From positions 1 to 64,000 of the IMG/VR virus record IMGVR_UViG_3300043427_001127: DNA of 64,000 nucleotides. One strand, written 5' to 3'. Numbering within the stretch: the stretch's first letter is position 1; every line of letters starts with the position of its first letter. The notes beneath the pieces are model-generated. The model made no database searches. It was not told the origin of the DNA and saw only the letters and a list, made by a program, of their open reading frames with translations. Below are positions 4,690 to 61,693 of this stretch, in pieces. The stretch is from a virus. The position numbers and the translations under genes were made by a program.

Positions 4690-4914
4690 ATGTCTATGCT
4701 CCAACTTGACCCTCAAATACCCGTCTTGACCCCTAAAGGGTCGGGATGGGCATTTTTTTTAATCGATAGAAGTCAAGAACATGACCTAGAATGGGTAGTT
4801 TTCTTGGATGAAGGCGGATTTTGCTGGACTTTTCGCAATTCAGATGTTAGAATACAGAAAAATATGACCTTCGGGCGCGAAAATATTGAAAAATTCGGGA
4901 TAGCAACCCCGTAA
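4690..4914 (+). CDS. Conserved cyanophage hypothetical protein (74 aa)
   Basis: A 74-aa protein with the pattern MLQLDPQIPVLTPKGSGWAF then DRSQEHDLEWVVFLDEGG, CWTFRNSDVR and QKNMTFGR. I recognise this as a small conserved family of T4-like cyanophages without known function. The second Met (4696) is an equally good start. An internal GACCC/GGGTC hairpin and T8 run (4728-4760) lie in the coding region. They are more likely coding coincidence than a terminator. Confidence 0.65.
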   Translation: MSMLQLDPQIPVLTPKGSGWAFFLIDRSQEHDLEWVVFLDEGGFCWTFRNSDVRIQKNMTFGRENIEKFGIATP

Positions 4915-51947: not shown

Positions 51948-51975
51948 AATCCCTCCTCGCGGAGGGATTTTTTTT
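51948..51975 (+). terminator. Rho-independent terminator
   Basis: Stem AATCCCTCC (51948-51956) and GGAGGGATT (51961-51969) with loop TCGC, then a run of T (51968-51975). The next late box begins at the last T of the run. Confidence 0.92.
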
Positions 51976-51982
51976 ATAAATA
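51975..51982 (+). promoter_or_regulatory. T4-type late promoter box
   Basis: TATAAATA immediately after the terminator T-run, expected start near 51988. It drives the gene at 52020; its leader holds a seven-G run shortly before the ATG. Confidence 0.75.
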
Positions 51983-53397: not shown

Positions 53398-56300
53398 ATG
53401 GCTGAATTTAGATTAGGTAGACTAAAGTTCAACTGGACTGGCGAATGGCAACCAAACCGCGCCTATGTTCTGGACGATATTATCTCATTCAGAGGTAATA
53501 CTTACGTTTGTGTGGTTAACCACACTTCTACTGGTTCAGTAGAGCAATGGGAAGATGTTGATCTCAACGCAAGTACACCAAGATGGGAACTATATGTTCC
53601 TGGTATTAGAAATGCTGGTTCTTGGCAACCAAATACTTTCTACGCTAAAAATGATCTTGTGCGTTATGGTGGCAATATTTACATTTGTAAAGACAACCAC
53701 ACTTCACCATCCGACCAAAATCTTTTTTACCTAACAAACTTTGCTGGTAACTGGGATCTTTTTTATAACGGCACAGAAAACAAAGGAACTTGGCAGCAAA
53801 ACACTTGGTATAAAGTCAATGATCTTGTTAAGTATGGAAACAATATTTACCTATGCAATCTAGGTCATACTTCAACGACAGCATTTGATATTACTAAGTT
53901 TACTCTTTACTTAGAATCAGTAAAGTTTGAAGATAGTTGGGATTCGAGTACGGAATATCAACCTGGGGACATCGTTCTTTTTGGTGGTTATTCATATACC
54001 GCAAAAACTATTAATACTGACAAACAACCAAACAACTATGTTAGCACCGATTGGGAAGTAATCAGTATTGGTTTTGATTCAAAAGGTGTTTATAATCCAG
54101 CAACCATTTACGTTCCTGGGGATGTAGTTCGTTTTGGTGGAAACACATTCGTTAAAATGCTTACGAGTGTAGCGGGGATTGCTCCAAATGAATCAGGAGA
54201 TGGTGCGTTAAAATGGAGTTTAATCTCGGAAGGTTTATCTTATAAAGGTGATTGGGATGACCAAACAACATATCAAAAGAACGATGTAATCACCCTAGCT
54301 TCTAGTACTTATGTAAGCATTGCTTACAATAACTTAGGAAGAGATCCTGGAACCAATGATGCAGATGGATTCTGGTCTGTAGTTGCGAGGGGCGATGAAG
54401 AAAGTACAATCACAACAAAAGGTGATCTTCTCTACAGAGCGAATGCTACCAACGCAAGATTGCCCATAGGAGATCCTGGTCAGATTCTCTATGCTACAGA
54501 AAATGGTATTCCTGGGTGGGGTAATGCAAAAACCAGAAAAGTTTATTTTGTAAACTTAGATGGCGTTGATGATTTTTCTGATGGTTATGGCGGTTCTATT
54601 GGAAGAGCTTTTAGAACAGTTAAGTACGCCACTCAGATTGCTGCACAAGAAGGTTGTGACGAACAGAACCCAGCAACGATTTATGTAAAAGCTGGTGTAT
54701 ACGACGAAGAGTGTCCTATTACGGTTCCACCATATTGTTCTGTTGTTGGTGACGACAGTAGAGGAACTATTATCGAGCCAGGTCCAGGTTTAAGTAAGAT
54801 TCAAAGATTAATCATTGATTCAACATGTTTATTAAAGCCAGGAGATACACTGACTGTTGATACATTAGCAGGGGCAACCAGAACTGCAAGAGTTCTTCAC
54901 TTTGCTGATACTGACGCTACCCCCGTGGGCAGCGGAGAATCAAATCGCAAAAAAATGGTTTATGTTGAAACCATTGCTGGTGGTCCTATTATCGATACAG
55001 ATACTTTCTTAAACGGTACTGATTTAGGAACAGCACCTGAAGTAAATATCATTTCTGTTGAAAATCTAAATAACACCAAAGCAACTCTATTCTTCCTTTC
55101 GGAAGGTGTGATGCTCAAGGATCTTGTATTCAACAACCCAGACCCCGATGCTGGTTTTGTTATGCCAGATACAACTGGATTGACAATCGAGGAAGAAATA
55201 ACAAACAAACTTGCTGATATCACACAATGTCAGGTTGGGTTCGTTTTCTGGAGAATCAATCCATTCCTGGTATCACAGAATATTATTAAGAGTCCTTATA
55301 TTTACAGTTGTGCGGCATACTCATTTAAAGGTGTTGGCGCTATTGTAGATGGTTCTGTCAATGAAGGAAAAGATCACCCATCTCACTTTGCTTCTGGTCA
55401 CCAAAGCTTACTATTTGGCAACGTAACACAGTTCCCAGAAATGGGTGTTGCGATTTGGTGTAAGGACAATGGAAACTCAGAAATTGTTTCTTGCTTTACT
55501 TACTACGCTCATATTGGTTATGCTTGCTCTGGTGGTGCTCGTATGCGCTCTCTCGGTGGAAACAACTCTTGGGGTAACTATGGTTGTTCTGCAAGAGGAT
55601 TTGACCCAACCGAGATTCCACTTGAAGCAACTATTCGTGGCACAGAATTAAACTTCTATAATGATGCCACAACAGCAGTTGCGACAGCGACTGTTAATGG
55701 TAACTTAGTACTAGGAACTATTGCTCAATCTGGAAAGATTAATGGAGATTTCCAAGTAGGTTCTATTATTTCTAACGAAGGATCGGCAAATAATACTAGT
55801 ATTACTGGTGTTGTAGGAAATGGAACAACTGCCACTGTTTCATTTGCCACTAAACCATTTAATCCTTATGTAGTTGGTAAGCAAATTACAATCAGTGGTG
55901 TATCCAATAGTGCTTTTAATGGCACATTTACTGTTACTGGTATTGTTGGCACAGATGGTGTTATTACTGGTGTGCAGTTTGCATCCACTACTACTGCTAC
56001 TTTAGGTGCTGGTGGTACTGTTAGACCTGCATTGGGTAAGGCAAGAGTTCTTTATGTTCTCGCTGGAAATGATTATACTAAAGTTCTTATCGAACCAATC
56101 ACAGGATTTATCGGTGACGGTCAAAGATGTGCTCAGATTACAGGATCAGATCCAAACAATCCACCTCCAGTAAATATTCCAGAAGCATCTACTGTTATTG
56201 AAAATAGCGAGTTCCCATCCACATCTCCAAGTGAAAGTGCTGCAAACAGAGCAACAAGAGGTGCTAAGTTTGCTGTTATTAATCTACCAGAAAAACCAAA

Positions 56301-58713
56301 GATTACTAGTGCAGTAACATTTTCTGATAGTGTTGATGGTATTAACTATGTTATTCAAGAAATTGAAAACTACAGTGATGGTCCATCAGCTACATTTAAA
56401 GTTCTTGACGTAACAAGAACAGCAAGTTTAGAAAATACTGTAGTAACTATTCCTATTGCCAAAACTGGAACATTTCCAACTGGTGTTAATAGACCCGCTG
56501 AAACACATGTAGGTGGAACTGATATTACACTGTATAGTTTATTGACAGGAACAAATAATCAAGTTCTTATTGATAATCCTGGTCAGTTATTAACTTCAAC
56601 TTCAGCAACTAACATTAATATTTTAAATCCAGAAAGAGTAACAGCAGCTCTTGCTACATACAATACTGCATCAACAACTCTTTATCTACTAGTAGGTAAT
56701 GAGTTAATGCTACCAACAGCAGTTGTAGATGATCAGTTTAATAGCTATGTAACTGTTGTAAGAGCACAAGAGGGAACTATTGCCCAAGAGCACGCCGACC
56801 AAGACTCACCAAACTTTCCACAAAACGCTGTAGTTAGATTTGTAGTTAAATACACTCCAGTAACTACATTAAGACAAGACTCAACAAATCTTTCTAACGT
56901 TCTTTCATACAGTTCTTTAACTGGAAATGGTGGTCTTCCTGTATTCTCATTCACAGACCAAGAAGGAGTAGCAACGAAAACAATTAATGAAAATGATTTT
57001 ATTAAGATCGACAATGAGTTTTTCAGAGTAGATCTGAAGACTTCAACTAATCCTGGAACCGCAATCTTAACATTCTTCCCCGTTAAGTCTGTGTCGGAAG
57101 GAAGTGGCAATCGTCTTCAGATTCGTTATCGTTACAGTCAGATTCGTCTAACTGGTCACGACATGCTTGAGATTGGCACTGGTGGTATTGCTACAACCAA
57201 CTTCCCAGATGAACCTACTATCAGACCAGATGAAACCAAAGAAACCAACTTCATCGCTCCAGCTAGAATTTATTATGTAACTACCAACCAAGATGGTAAC
57301 TTCAAGGTAGGACAGTTCTTCAAGATTGACCAGGCAACTGGTAGATCTACAATCGATGCATCCGCTTTTGACTTGACTGGACTATCAAACCTACAGTTTG
57401 CTTTAGCCGATGGAACTAAGGTTGGCGTTGAAGTCACCAAGTTTGATGCTGATGCCACTTTAGGTGGTTCTGAAAGTAGCGATTCTTTCGTTCCCACGCA
57501 AAAAGCAGTTAAAACATATGTTGACAGTAACTTTATTAGTTCAAACCAAGATATTACAGTTGGTTCTGAAGCCGTAAATAAAAACTTAACAGTAAATGGA
57601 AACAGTACTGTTAGTGGTGATATGATTATTGGTGGAAGTTTACAAGTTAGCGGAACGACAACCAGTATCAACACCACTGAACTAATCGTGGAAGATGTAA
57701 ACGTCATTCTTGCTGGTGGAAACGTCACTGGTGATTCTGCTATTCAGGGTGCTGGTTTGACTATCAAAGGAACCACAGATAAAACTATATCATATGATGG
57801 TTCTTCAACTACTGGTAGATTTAATATTAGTGAAAACCTTTTACTTGCTCCTGGAAAATATATTGCTTCGAAACCAGCAGCTACCGATGGAACAGGTGCT
57901 CTAGCAACTGAAGAAATCATGATCGATACTAATGTCAGTGGTTCCACTGGTATTGGTTTAGTATTCCCAACCATTTCCCAGTTGGATATCGGCAACGCAT
58001 CAACTGCTTTAACTATCGGTGCTACAACAGGAACGACTACAGTAAGAAATAGTTTGATTGTCCCTGCTGGTACTACCACATTAGCTCCTCTTAGATTCAC
58101 ACCAACAGCAGCAGCACTATTAACACTTCCACTTCAAGGTGGTTTTGAATATAACCAGATTGCTTTCTATGCTTCTGCGACTACTGAAGGTGGAAGAGGT
58201 ATTATCCTCGCGCCACAAATCTTAAGAGCTGCTGCTGACTTCGCTCAGACTGGAACCACAAACACAGTCAGAAACGTATTCTCAGGAACAACTCAGGATG
58301 CCGCTCCATTAAGAGCAAATACATTATACAGATTTAGAGGTTGTTATTATTTTGCTAAATCAACTACCACAAGTGGTACTTGGAACCTGCTGTTTACATT
58401 CTCAAATGCTCCAACCAACTTTAGATATAACTCAATAGGAGCAAATGGACCTTCTACAACTGCATTGTTCTTCCAAAATACAACTGCAACTGGATCAACT
58501 GCTGTTACTCAAGCAGTAACTGTCACAACTGATTGTGCGATAAGATTTGAAGGTTACTTCGTATCAAACGCAACAACTGGCGGAACATTAACTCCTCAGT
58601 TTAACAAGAGTGATACTGCTAACGCAACTGTAAATACTCGCACCAACTCATACTTTGAGATTCAAGCTATGGGTCCAGCTAACCCATCGATTATTGCTGG
58701 TACTTGGAGTTGA
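53398..58713 (+). CDS. Giant fibre with six CBM5/12-like modules and beta-helix (1771 aa)
   Basis: A 1771-aa protein. The first about 320 residues hold six tandem units of about 50 residues that begin near 14, 75, 131, 178, 229 and 283. Each has the pattern W-x-x-x-x-x-Y-x-x-x-D-x-V-x-x-x-G-x-x-Y of carbohydrate-binding modules 5/12 (for example GSWQPNTFYAKNDLVRYGG). From about 381 a beta-helix with the YFVNLDGVDD start resembles that of the 1694-aa fibre. Near 1300 stands DGNFKVGQFFKID with FVPTQKAVKTYV (about 1362), and the last 190 residues match the tip of the 540-aa fibre. It is likely a polysaccharide-binding tailspike or fibre. A terminator follows. Confidence 0.82.
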   Translation: MAEFRLGRLKFNWTGEWQPNRAYVLDDIISFRGNTYVCVVNHTSTGSVEQWEDVDLNASTPRWELYVPGIRNAGSWQPNTFYAKNDLVRYGGNIYICKDNHTSPSDQNLFYLTNFAGNWDLFYNGTENKGTWQQNTWYKVNDLVKYGNNIYLCNLGHTSTTAFDITKFTLYLESVKFEDSWDSSTEYQPGDIVLFGGYSYTAKTINTDKQPNNYVSTDWEVISIGFDSKGVYNPATIYVPGDVVRFGGNTFVKMLTSVAGIAPNESGDGALKWSLISEGLSYKGDWDDQTTYQKNDVITLASSTYVSIAYNNLGRDPGTNDADGFWSVVARGDEESTITTKGDLLYRANATNARLPIGDPGQILYATENGIPGWGNAKTRKVYFVNLDGVDDFSDGYGGSIGRAFRTVKYATQIAAQEGCDEQNPATIYVKAGVYDEECPITVPPYCSVVGDDSRGTIIEPGPGLSKIQRLIIDSTCLLKPGDTLTVDTLAGATRTARVLHFADTDATPVGSGESNRKKMVYVETIAGGPIIDTDTFLNGTDLGTAPEVNIISVENLNNTKATLFFLSEGVMLKDLVFNNPDPDAGFVMPDTTGLTIEEEITNKLADITQCQVGFVFWRINPFLVSQNIIKSPYIYSCAAYSFKGVGAIVDGSVNEGKDHPSHFASGHQSLLFGNVTQFPEMGVAIWCKDNGNSEIVSCFTYYAHIGYACSGGARMRSLGGNNSWGNYGCSARGFDPTEIPLEATIRGTELNFYNDATTAVATATVNGNLVLGTIAQSGKINGDFQVGSIISNEGSANNTSITGVVGNGTTATVSFATKPFNPYVVGKQITISGVSNSAFNGTFTVTGIVGTDGVITGVQFASTTTATLGAGGTVRPALGKARVLYVLAGNDYTKVLIEPITGFIGDGQRCAQITGSDPNNPPPVNIPEASTVIENSEFPSTSPSESAANRATRGAKFAVINLPEKPKITSAVTFSDSVDGINYVIQEIENYSDGPSATFKVLDVTRTASLENTVVTIPIAKTGTFPTGVNRPAETHVGGTDITLYSLLTGTNNQVLIDNPGQLLTSTSATNINILNPERVTAALATYNTASTTLYLLVGNELMLPTAVVDDQFNSYVTVVRAQEGTIAQEHADQDSPNFPQNAVVRFVVKYTPVTTLRQDSTNLSNVLSYSSLTGNGGLPVFSFTDQEGVATKTINENDFIKIDNEFFRVDLKTSTNPGTAILTFFPVKSVSEGSGNRLQIRYRYSQIRLTGHDMLEIGTGGIATTNFPDEPTIRPDETKETNFIAPARIYYVTTNQDGNFKVGQFFKIDQATGRSTIDASAFDLTGLSNLQFALADGTKVGVEVTKFDADATLGGSESSDSFVPTQKAVKTYVDSNFISSNQDITVGSEAVNKNLTVNGNSTVSGDMIIGGSLQVSGTTTSINTTELIVEDVNVILAGGNVTGDSAIQGAGLTIKGTTDKTISYDGSSTTGRFNISENLLLAPGKYIASKPAATDGTGALATEEIMIDTNVSGSTGIGLVFPTISQLDIGNASTALTIGATTGTTTVRNSLIVPAGTTTLAPLRFTPTAAALLTLPLQGGFEYNQIAFYASATTEGGRGIILAPQILRAAADFAQTGTTNTVRNVFSGTTQDAAPLRANTLYRFRGCYYFAKSTTTSGTWNLLFTFSNAPTNFRYNSIGANGPSTTALFFQNTTATGSTAVTQAVTVTTDCAIRFEGYFVSNATTGGTLTPQFNKSDTANATVNTRTNSYFEIQAMGPANPSIIAGTWS

Positions 58714-58731
58714 TAAATAAATAACATGATT

Positions 58732-58739
58732 TATAAATA
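58732..58739 (+). promoter_or_regulatory. Late promoter box nested in a terminator hairpin
   Basis: TATAAATA overlapping the 5' arm of the hairpin at 58735-58762. A start near 58745 would lie at the end of that arm, so the late RNA would lack most of it. Confidence 0.7.
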
Positions 58740-58766
58740 CCTCTAGGAAACTAGAGGTATTTTTTT
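58735..58766 (+). terminator. Rho-independent terminator at the gp13 start
   Basis: Stem AAATACCTCTAG (58735-58746) and CTAGAGGTATTT (58751-58762) around loop GAAA, then T through 58766; the gp13 ATG is the next base. The 3' arm contains AGAGG (58753-58757), 9 nt before the ATG, which would serve as the gp13 ribosome binding site. Confidence 0.85.
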
Positions 58767-59591
58767 ATGGCTAAACCAGCCACAAGAGAAGAGTTAAAAG
58801 AGTATTGCCTCAGAAAACTTGGTGCTCCTATATTAGAAATCAACGTAGATGATGATCAACTAGAAGATCTAATCGATGATGCTTTGCAGTATTTTAATGA
58901 ACGTCATTTTGACGGCATGGAAAAACTTTATCTAAAACATAAGTTTACTGCAGAAGAACTGGAAAGATTTAGAGAAGGCAATACTATTCACACATCAGAA
59001 GATGGCAGTGAGTGGGAAGAGAGAAATAACTATATTGAACTTCCAGATCATATCATTGGAATCGAGAGAGTATTTTCTTTATCAATGACAGCTCTTCGTT
59101 CTGACTTTTTTGGTTTTGGAAACCAATATTTTCTAATGGACATGTTTTCTTTGAACTCTGGATATTCTCTGGGTAATGTTGACCTAGTTAACTATTACAT
59201 GTTTAAACAATATTTTGAAACTTTGGACATGGTTTTAAACAGTGGGGCGATTATTCAATGTCGTTTCACAAAAAGAAACGGAAAACTTTTTATTGATTAC
59301 AATCCAAAAGTTTTACAAGAAGATAACTATTTCATTGTTGAATGTCATCGTCTTTTAAATCCAACTGATTCTCCAAAGATATGGAATGATTGGTTTTTGA
59401 AAAGATATGTCACTGCACTATTCAAGAAACAGTGGGGGCAAAATCTAATCAAGTTTAACAATGTTCAACTTCCTGGTGGCGTTCAAATCAACGGTCGTCA
59501 AATTTTTGAAGATGCTATCAGAGAAATAGATGAAATCGAATCTAAGATGATTAGCGACTACGAACTTCCACCTCTCGATGCAATAGGATAA
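58767..59591 (+). CDS. 13: Neck protein gp13 (head completion)
   Basis: A 274-aa protein (T4: 309 aa). The N-terminus ATREELKEYCLRKLGAPILE with NVDDDQLEDLIDDALQYFNE, and later KRYVTALFKKQWGQNLIKF (about 212-230) with the QLPGGVQINGRQIFEDA element, is typical of gp13 in cyanophages. gp13 joins the portal to gp14 after packaging and closes the head. Translation start depends on the GAGG in the terminator's 3' arm. One base separates it from gp14. Confidence 0.93.
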   Translation: MAKPATREELKEYCLRKLGAPILEINVDDDQLEDLIDDALQYFNERHFDGMEKLYLKHKFTAEELERFREGNTIHTSEDGSEWEERNNYIELPDHIIGIERVFSLSMTALRSDFFGFGNQYFLMDMFSLNSGYSLGNVDLVNYYMFKQYFETLDMVLNSGAIIQCRFTKRNGKLFIDYNPKVLQEDNYFIVECHRLLNPTDSPKIWNDWFLKRYVTALFKKQWGQNLIKFNNVQLPGGVQINGRQIFEDAIREIDEIESKMISDYELPPLDAIG

Positions 59592-59592
59592 T

Positions 59593-60492
59593 ATGTCTAA
59601 GAGCGTATATTTTCCACAATACGGTGGTGTAAATACCGAACAGAATCTGGTACAAGATTTGGTAGACGAACAAATACACCTGTTTGGTATGGATATTTTT
59701 TATGTTCCAAAAGAAATGTTGATTGATAGATCACTTAATGATGTTATTTTAAATGAGTTTAAAGAAGCTCATCTGATAGAAATGATGCTAATCAATGTAG
59801 AAGGTTTTGGTGGATCTGGTGCTGTTGCCATGAGCAAGTTTGGATTGAAACTTTCGGATGAAGTTACATTTGCTGTATCAAAAAGAAAGTGGTCTCTTAA
59901 ACCAGATTTAATGAGTTCCACCAGTGTTCCTGGTAGACCTAATGAAGGTGATTTATTGTATGTTCCAATGACTAAAAACATCTATGAAATCAAGTTTGTA
60001 GAAAGAGAAGTTCCTTTTTATCAGTTAGGTAAAAACTATATCTTTGCCCTAACTTGTGAGTTGTTAGAAAATGCCGACAACATGTTTGATACTGGCAACC
60101 CAGAAATAGATGATCCAAAAAAAGAAAACTATGTATTTCCAGTTTATTTAAAAACTGGTGGTGTTGGCAACTACACGATTGGCGAAGAAGTTGAACAAAC
60201 ATACATAGTAGATGGTACTGCTGTTATGGTAAAAGCAACAGTTGCTGCATGGAATGCGCCATCTAGAAAACTAGATTTAACTTATGTTAATGGTGTGTTC
60301 AGACAAAATGAAGAACTCATAGGAGTAGATAGTGGTGCATCTTGGGAAGTAGATACATTCTCTACGATTGATTTTGAGATTGATGATTTTGATAATGCAC
60401 AGAATAAATATTACGAAGACAAAGCCGATGAGATTCTTGACTTTAGTGAAGGAAATCCATTTGGTGAATTTGGAGATATGGGAGTATTCTAA
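59593..60492 (+). CDS. 14: Neck protein gp14
   Basis: A 299-aa protein (T4: 256 aa). Head-to-tail joining protein that forms a ring below gp13. Typical features: an N-terminal QYGGVNTEQNLVQDLVDEQI, then DIFYVPKEMLIDRSLNDVIL (both near residues 8-55) and a YQLGKNYIFALTCEL element around 142-156. The C-terminal region (about 190-245) has an IGEEVEQTYIVDGTAVMVKA strand pair that cyanophage gp14 forms carry. Its stop overlaps the gp15 start (TAATG). Confidence 0.9.
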   Translation: MSKSVYFPQYGGVNTEQNLVQDLVDEQIHLFGMDIFYVPKEMLIDRSLNDVILNEFKEAHLIEMMLINVEGFGGSGAVAMSKFGLKLSDEVTFAVSKRKWSLKPDLMSSTSVPGRPNEGDLLYVPMTKNIYEIKFVEREVPFYQLGKNYIFALTCELLENADNMFDTGNPEIDDPKKENYVFPVYLKTGGVGNYTIGEEVEQTYIVDGTAVMVKATVAAWNAPSRKLDLTYVNGVFRQNEELIGVDSGASWEVDTFSTIDFEIDDFDNAQNKYYEDKADEILDFSEGNPFGEFGDMGVF

Positions 60493-61289
60493 TGTTAGGT
60501 CAGTATTATTATCACGAGATTATAAAGAAAAACGTCAAAGCATTTGGCACACTTTTTAATAATATTCAAATTGTTAAACGTGATCCAGATACAGGAGAAG
60601 TTATACGTCAAGAAAAAGTTCCTCTCGCGTATGGTCCTAAGAGTAAGTTTCTAGCTCGTTTAGAACAGGATCCAAACACAGAAAGAAAAGTCAGCGTTAC
60701 TATGCCTCGCATCTCATTTGAGATGACTGACATTACATATGACGCCCAAAGAAAAACTTCACCTATTCAAAAATATAAAGTAAATGATGATGGAGAGAAT
60801 GTAAAAGTTCAGTTTATGCCTGTTCCATATAATCTTCGTTTTGAACTAGGTATTCTATCAAAAACTCAGGATGATGCTCTACAGATTCTAGAGCAGATTC
60901 TACCATTTTTTCAACCATCATTCAACGTTACTGTTATGATGATTCCAGAAATGGAAGAGAAAAAAGATTTACCAGTTATTTTAAATGGCATTTCATATGA
61001 AGATGACTATGAAGATGATATGATGAGAAGAAGAAGTATAACATATACTTTAGATTTCACATTAAAAACTTACATGTACGGTCCAGTTACTGATGCCGCT
61101 ATCATCAGAAAAGCAACGGTATTTGAAAGTCTCGGTGATTACCAAGAGCATAGAAGGATTCTTCGTTATGACGTGGAAGCGTCAGCACTAGAAGATAAAA
61201 ATAATGATGGTGTTGTTGATAACTTAGATGATCAACTATTAATGCCAGACGATGACTTTGGATTTAATGAAGGTATTGAACTACTATGA
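60492..61289 (+). CDS. 15: Tail completion / sheath stabiliser gp15
   Basis: A 265-aa protein (T4: 272 aa). It starts MLGQYYYHEIIKKNVKAFGT and has VSVTMPRISFEMTDITYDAQ near 75-95, with ETLPVILNGI-type strand elements (DLPVILNGISYEDDY near 158-172). gp15 forms the hexamer that ends the tail tube and sheath and binds the neck. It overlaps gp16 by ATGA. Complete in length. Confidence 0.93.
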   Translation: MLGQYYYHEIIKKNVKAFGTLFNNIQIVKRDPDTGEVIRQEKVPLAYGPKSKFLARLEQDPNTERKVSVTMPRISFEMTDITYDAQRKTSPIQKYKVNDDGENVKVQFMPVPYNLRFELGILSKTQDDALQILEQILPFFQPSFNVTVMMIPEMEEKKDLPVILNGISYEDDYEDDMMRRRSITYTLDFTLKTYMYGPVTDAAIIRKATVFESLGDYQEHRRILRYDVEASALEDKNNDGVVDNLDDQLLMPDDDFGFNEGIELL

Positions 61290-61693
61290 GCAAGTTTGAA
61301 GATAACATGGAAGAGATTTTTGATATAGCACCGATTGAACAAACAACTGAAATGATTACACAAGCAAACAGTGAAGTCAGTGTTGATGCCAACAAGGATT
61401 ATGAATACACCAGGGGTGAGCTGTATAGACTCATATCACAGGGTCAGGAGGCGGTGCAAGGTGCCTTAGAGGTCGCGCAGGAGTCGGGGCACCCTAGAGC
61501 GTATGAGGTCGCTGTGAACGCTATGAAGCAGGTCTCAGACATGACTGATAAGTTGATCGACCTCCAACACAAGATGAAAAATCTAGGTAAAGAAGATAAA
61601 AAATCAACACCAACCACAGTCAATAACACAATGTTTATTGGCACCACGGCAGATCTTCAAAAGATGATTAAAGATGCTGCCAAGAATAAATAG
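61286..61693 (+). CDS. 16: Terminase small subunit gp16
   Basis: A 135-aa protein (T4: 164 aa). The central helices YEYTRGELYRLISQGQEAVQ and ALEVAQESGHPRAYEVAVNA, followed by SDMTDKLIDLQHKMKNLGK, are the coiled-coil core of T4-type small terminases. These form rings that regulate the gp17 motor and help recognise concatemer DNA. The gp17 gene does not follow at once: two structural genes and a partial gene stand between. Codons within 61441-61500 are GC-rich unlike the rest of the gene (see separate entry). Confidence 0.88.
   Translation: MSKFEDNMEEIFDIAPIEQTTEMITQANSEVSVDANKDYEYTRGELYRLISQGQEAVQGALEVAQESGHPRAYEVAVNAMKQVSDMTDKLIDLQHKMKNLGKEDKKSTPTTVNNTMFIGTTADLQKMIKDAAKNK
61441..61500. other. 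GC-rich patch inside the gp16 gene
   Basis: 41 of 60 bases are G or C (68 percent by hand count) inside an AT-rich region. It codes for QGQEAVQGALEVAQESGHP. Codons GCG, GCC, GAG, GTC and GGG replace the usual A/T-ended ones. A nucleotide-level function such as a packaging initiation site in the small-terminase gene, or local transfer, may explain it. Confidence 0.6.

Follow-up and report, generated by a model that had tools for sequence, protein, structure and literature searches.

In bacteriophage T4, leaders have been reported in which a hairpin that hides the SD sequence contains a late promoter, and their regulation has been described (PMC3014915, PMC2988022). When the classifier used in this work was applied to T4, genes e, 49, I-TevI, I-TevII and segB were recovered, the last three being named from sequence and length. 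In all five the late box NATAAATA overlaps or abuts the 5' arm of the hairpin, the SD sequence lies in the 3' arm, and a late start removes the 5' arm. The late promoters of the cyanomyoviruses S-PM2 and Syn9 share with the phage studied here, which has a gp55 homologue, the NATAAATA box and the sigma-factor family (PMC2984593); in the accessible parts of that paper and of PMC3037559 there is no mention of an overlap of these promoters with a hairpin or terminator.

The window analysed here comprises bases 1-64000 of a 171,625-base record; the phage is T4-like and stands near the marine cyanophages. The genome encodes a gp55 homologue (tblastn 3e-17), and between its gp13 and the closest such proteins of Synechococcus phages identity is 48-60%. 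Positions 58732-58766, 35 bp in all, read TATAAATACCTCTAGGAAACTAGAGGTATTTTTTT, and the ATG of gp13 follows directly at 58767. Computation resolved this stretch into the parts listed in Table 1, with the same layout as the five T4 leaders and strikingly close to T4 e (TATAAATACCTTC..TTAGGAGGTATTATG, also TATAAATACCT..AGGAGGTATTATG) and 49 (AATAAATACCCTTA..TAAGGGTTTATTATG). The overlap of late box and 5' arm claimed in an earlier note on this DNA was confirmed, AAATA (58735-58739) being common to both. The hairpin with its SD sequence in front of gp13 was also as described there, except that the end given, 58767, is the first base of gp13 and lies outside the hairpin. We consider it about 75% probable that 58732-58766 is a late promoter fused to a hairpin that hides the ribosome binding site (RBS) and to an intrinsic terminator, placed where one transcription unit gives way to the next.

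Table 1. Features of the gp13 element, its gene neighbourhood and the second copy (window coordinates unless given as record).
Feature	Coordinates	Strand	Evidence
Apparent start of the late unit before this one: terminator at 51948-51969 and, past its T-run, box TATAAATA at 51975-51982	51948-51982	+	terminator and box scans
Gene upstream of gp13 (1771 aa), probably structural, with three CBM5/12 stretches	53398-58713	+	family search
T4-type late promoter box TATAAATA	58732-58739	+	sequence; predicted +1 ~58745
Hairpin 5' arm AAATACCTCTAG	58735-58746	+	terminator scan, folding, covariation
GAAA loop	58747-58750	+	sequence, folding
Hairpin 3' arm CTAGAGGTATTT	58751-58762	+	terminator scan, folding, covariation
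SD-like AGAGG within the 3' arm, 9 nt from the ATG	58753-58757	+	sequence
T7 run (terminator U-tract and SD-to-AUG spacer)	58760-58766	+	sequence, terminator scan
gp13 (neck; head-tail adaptor), opens the downstream unit	58767-59591	+	phrog_211, E 5.5e-42
gp14 neck protein	59593-60492	+	PF11649, phrog_460
gp15 tail sheath stabiliser	60492-61289	+	PF16724, phrog_227
gp16 terminase small subunit	61286-61693	+	phrog_445, PF11053
Second copy GATAAATACCTCCATCATGGAGGTTTTTTATT, before the ATG of the RusA-like Holliday junction resolvase (phrog_244)	record 105854-105885 (L209 ~4854-4885)		

The hairpin (58735-58762) has a 12-bp stem with four G-C pairs, followed by the T7 run (E -16.3). The fold of 58725-58780 reached -19.4 kcal/mol, against -6.95 +/- 2.75 for shuffled sequences (z -4.5), and none of 200 shuffles folded as well. 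With its G+C-containing stem and T-run, 58735-58766 has the sequence of an intrinsic (Rho-independent) terminator, and a scan of 44-64 kb gave just one other strong terminator-like site. The phage encodes a gp55 homologue and the NATAAATA box stands 5' of a late gene, as expected of a T4-type late promoter. A search of 58500-59000 against Rfam gave no match above the gathering score.

The +1 position was placed at 58745 because T4 late boxes occupy positions -13 to -6 (PMC1524935). An RNA starting there would retain just 2 nt of the 5' arm, and the predicted openness of the SD sequence rises from 0.03 in read-through RNA to 0.69 in the RNA from 58745. These predictions agree with the earlier note, which had proposed that a late start at about 58745 loses the 5' arm and frees an SD sequence that is hidden in RNA from upstream. 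As in the T4 e and 49 type of leader, read-through RNA is thus predicted to keep the SD sequence closed and late RNA to leave it open. Two further box matches, at 58712 (GATAAATA) and 58716 (AATAAATA), were weighed as candidates for the true gp13 promoter and rejected: RNA from either includes the entire hairpin, with an SD openness of 0.02. Both are contained in 58712-58723 (GATAAATAAATAA), at the stop codon of the upstream gene, a stretch that is kept in relative L001.

From these features we infer the following course of events. A polymerase coming from the upstream gene, whose RNA is what the terminator would stop, would make the whole hairpin and the U7 tract and stop just 5' of the gp13 AUG. 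In any RNA that reads through, the SD sequence of gp13 would be locked in the 3' arm and translation would be poor. The gp55-RNA polymerase, acting at TATAAATA, would initiate at about 58745, within the 5' arm. Because the hairpin cannot form without that arm, the late RNA would neither terminate nor hide the SD sequence, and gp13-gp16 would be translated from it with a leader of about 22 nt.

A search of phage records at the DNA level with a 3.5-kb query gave no match, and gp13 relatives were therefore taken from protein searches. Seventy-eight were selected by protein similarity alone and their leaders were then classified for box, hairpin and T-run. The complete arrangement was present in 22 leaders; 9 had the box and hairpin without T-run, 14 the box only and 33 neither. 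With the box fixed and the rest of the leader shuffled, hairpin and T-run appeared in 0.1% of cases (22/78 observed) and a hairpin without T-run in 5.1% (9/78 observed), which shows that the arrangement of box, hairpin and T-run is not due to chance. In a comparison of 11 phage genomes, the start predicted from NATAAATA fell inside a terminator hairpin in 12 of 537 cases, against 17 of 5769 for permuted 7-mers, a 7.6-fold difference.

The stem is maintained by covariation. Among 30 distinct gp13 elements, 93.1% of cells were paired, compared with 34-58% in slid registers; 5 of the 12 stem pairs, and 17 cells, were changed on both sides, against 1.3 and 1.8 in shuffles (0/500). Matched changes of the two arms include CCTCTAG/CTAGAGG, CCCCTAG/CTAGGGG and CCCATAG/CTATGGG, and matched insertions occur in L459 (CCTCTTAG/CTAAGGGG, an added pair) and L472 (CCTCTAAG/CTTAGAGG). 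Some of the pattern-scan sets were picked for ACC..GGTA, so that unconditioned covariation is limited to the inner pairs of the stem. On a tree of 197 gp13 proteins about 21 changes of state were counted for the trait, of which 14 or more fall on well-supported branches, which indicates that it has been gained and lost often and is not simply inherited. The arm-box overlap, whose conservation in relatives the earlier note had proposed as a check, is conserved with covariation; one of the signs that the note had named as refuting, loss of the hairpin with retention of the box, occurs in part (14/78 relatives, e.g. L011, L016, L019 and L039). In S-CAM1 and S-CAM3, the named phages nearest to this one by gp13, both box and hairpin are absent from this gene.

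It might be thought that an A+T-rich box and an ordinary terminator overlap here by chance, as the TATAAATA box alone is not over-represented in the window (10 copies where 5.9 are expected, a number reached in 9 of 100 shuffles). The covariation, the recurrence on the tree, the 22 of 78 leaders against 0.1% of shuffles and the presence of a second copy at another gene contradict this explanation, which we regard as highly improbable.

The distribution of the T-run bears on whether the element acts on translation only. It might be a switch like that of T4 gene e, with a hairpin that silences read-through RNA of the early or middle period and thereby confines the production of gp13-gp16 to late times, the T-run being a mere spacer. 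The same layout without T-run in T4 e, 49 and I-TevI (PMC3014915) is consistent with this, as is the retention of box and stem without T-run in L006, L008, L012 and others, which also means that termination is not universal. However, the T-run is present in 22 of the 31 protein-selected gp13 hairpin elements although it is not needed for hiding the SD sequence, and most of the RNA from upstream is probably late, as described below. A switch of translation only is therefore possible but doubtful.

It could be argued, conversely, that a plain terminator and a plain late promoter have been packed together to save space, with no control of translation; the SD sequence would then fall in the 3' arm because any GG-rich SD sequence pairs with the CC that follows the box. 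At gp13 of S-PM2, Syn1 and S-RIM32 the box lies in the terminator loop and the SD sequence outside the stem, so that these phages share the terminator-promoter overlap and not the SD hiding; the spacing is likewise tight where a late box follows a terminator. Against this, in many relatives the box is covered by an SD-hiding hairpin that has no T-run, in some cases of unrelated sequence (L219, L233, L301, L305, L321), and control at the level of translation has been described for the T4 genes that share this layout (PMC3014915). This explanation is, in our judgement, unlikely. A partition-function comparison of all relatives gave a weak signal outside the T-run class, and for this reason SD hiding is not claimed for every box-bearing gp13 leader.

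The fused promoter, hairpin and terminator that we favour has next to be placed among the transcription units. The gene upstream of gp13 appears to be part of a unit that has a late box of its own (51975), preceded by a terminator (51948), and the RNA arriving at the hairpin is therefore probably late as well. For this reason the gp13 copy is likelier to be a boundary between two late units than a guard against early expression. The earlier note's proposal that gp13-gp16 translation is coupled to late transcription only is not supported as it stands, given a probably structural upstream gene in what seems to be a unit with its own late box; its mechanism is otherwise largely supported, including the T4 gene e type of logic. 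A terminator with a late box soon after its T-run was also seen at record positions 98578, 150339, 123088 and 73878, and in other T4-like phages.

The second copy lies directly downstream of nrdA and nrdB, and its resolvase gene is followed by two endolysin genes. The element was found in most of 63 distinct upstream sequences of the resolvase gene from IMG/VR. Its stem is paired in 94.3% of cells and has 7 double-changed cells against 2.1 in shuffles; counted by pairs changed on both sides, the covariation is weaker (84/500 shuffles). For this copy, behind nrdAB, a T4-like guard against early expression appears to be the better reading, on the basis of the T4 comparison and the gene order. 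In the resolvase set (L542, L558, L600 and others) the box often reads NCTAAATA, as has been reported of the late promoters of Aeh1 (PMC1524935). According to a review in which S-PM2 was examined, this phage has no apparent gene e (PMC3014915); S-PM2 nevertheless carries the element (S-PM2 115169-115199) 5' of its resolvase-lysin genes.

The pattern was also searched for in IMG/VR, where the make-up of the matches listed was used and not their frequencies. Among these matches, TAAATACC..GG..TTTTT..ATG opened an ORF of at least 60 aa in 104 of 128 cases, compared with 14 of 104 for a non-complementary control, and it preceded several other gene families too. Among 220 box-bearing genes of 11 genomes, a hairpin with T-run was found six times, in cyanophages only (about zero in shuffles), and a hairpin without T-run in 9.5% (4.4% in shuffles). 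Marine T4-like phages may possess a recurrent, mobile or convergent, 35-bp "reset" module of promoter, terminator and RBS, which would separate late units and keep late genes, among them those for resolvase, endolysin and neck proteins, in check; a single hairpin would both terminate and silence, and late initiation would escape both. We give this generalization an even chance.

Other arrangements of box and stem were observed. A gene of 533-567 aa starting with MSQLFGF (putative portal gp20) has a late box in a hairpin in five named cyanophages (S-PM2 75700, Syn9 113914, Syn1 114241, S-RSM4 73082 on the minus strand, S-CAM3 136349); the hairpin sequences differ among them and there is no T-run. 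In the leader of the tail tube gene (record 133710-133744), TATAAATA on both strands gives a 9-bp A+U stem (TATAAATAC..GTATTTATA) just 5' of the ATG. At record 108897-108931 (AATAAATATTGGGGAGTGCTGCAGAACTCCCCTTTATG) the box adjoins a 7-bp G+C stem directly 5' of an ATG, and the 3' arm is without SD sequence.

No description of a fused promoter-terminator-RBS form was found in the literature searched, the coverage of which was incomplete, and priority is uncertain. The findings extend the well-described control of T4 e and 49 to abundant marine phages and to core virion genes, and the module offers a sequence rule for locating unit boundaries in marine phage genomes. With the resolvase-endolysin copy, two T4 functions, lysozyme and Holliday resolvase, would come under the same logic, although the resolvase here is annotated as RusA-like and that of T4 is endonuclease VII. 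The boundaries at 51948/51975 of this phage and at 87187 and 155837 of T4 resemble the gp13 element in combining the terminator of one unit with the late box of the next. Unlike in the gp13 element, their box follows the T-run, so that the promoter stays outside the RNA hairpin. At gp13 of T4 there is no element of the kind described here. The T4 copies stand on e, 49 and homing endonuclease genes carried by early or middle RNA, whereas here a neck-protein operon lies behind a gene that apparently belongs to a late unit. The T4 copies also lack a T-run of at least five and are not terminator-like; with its T7 run, the same hairpin at gp13 gains a likely terminator function relative to the T4 version.
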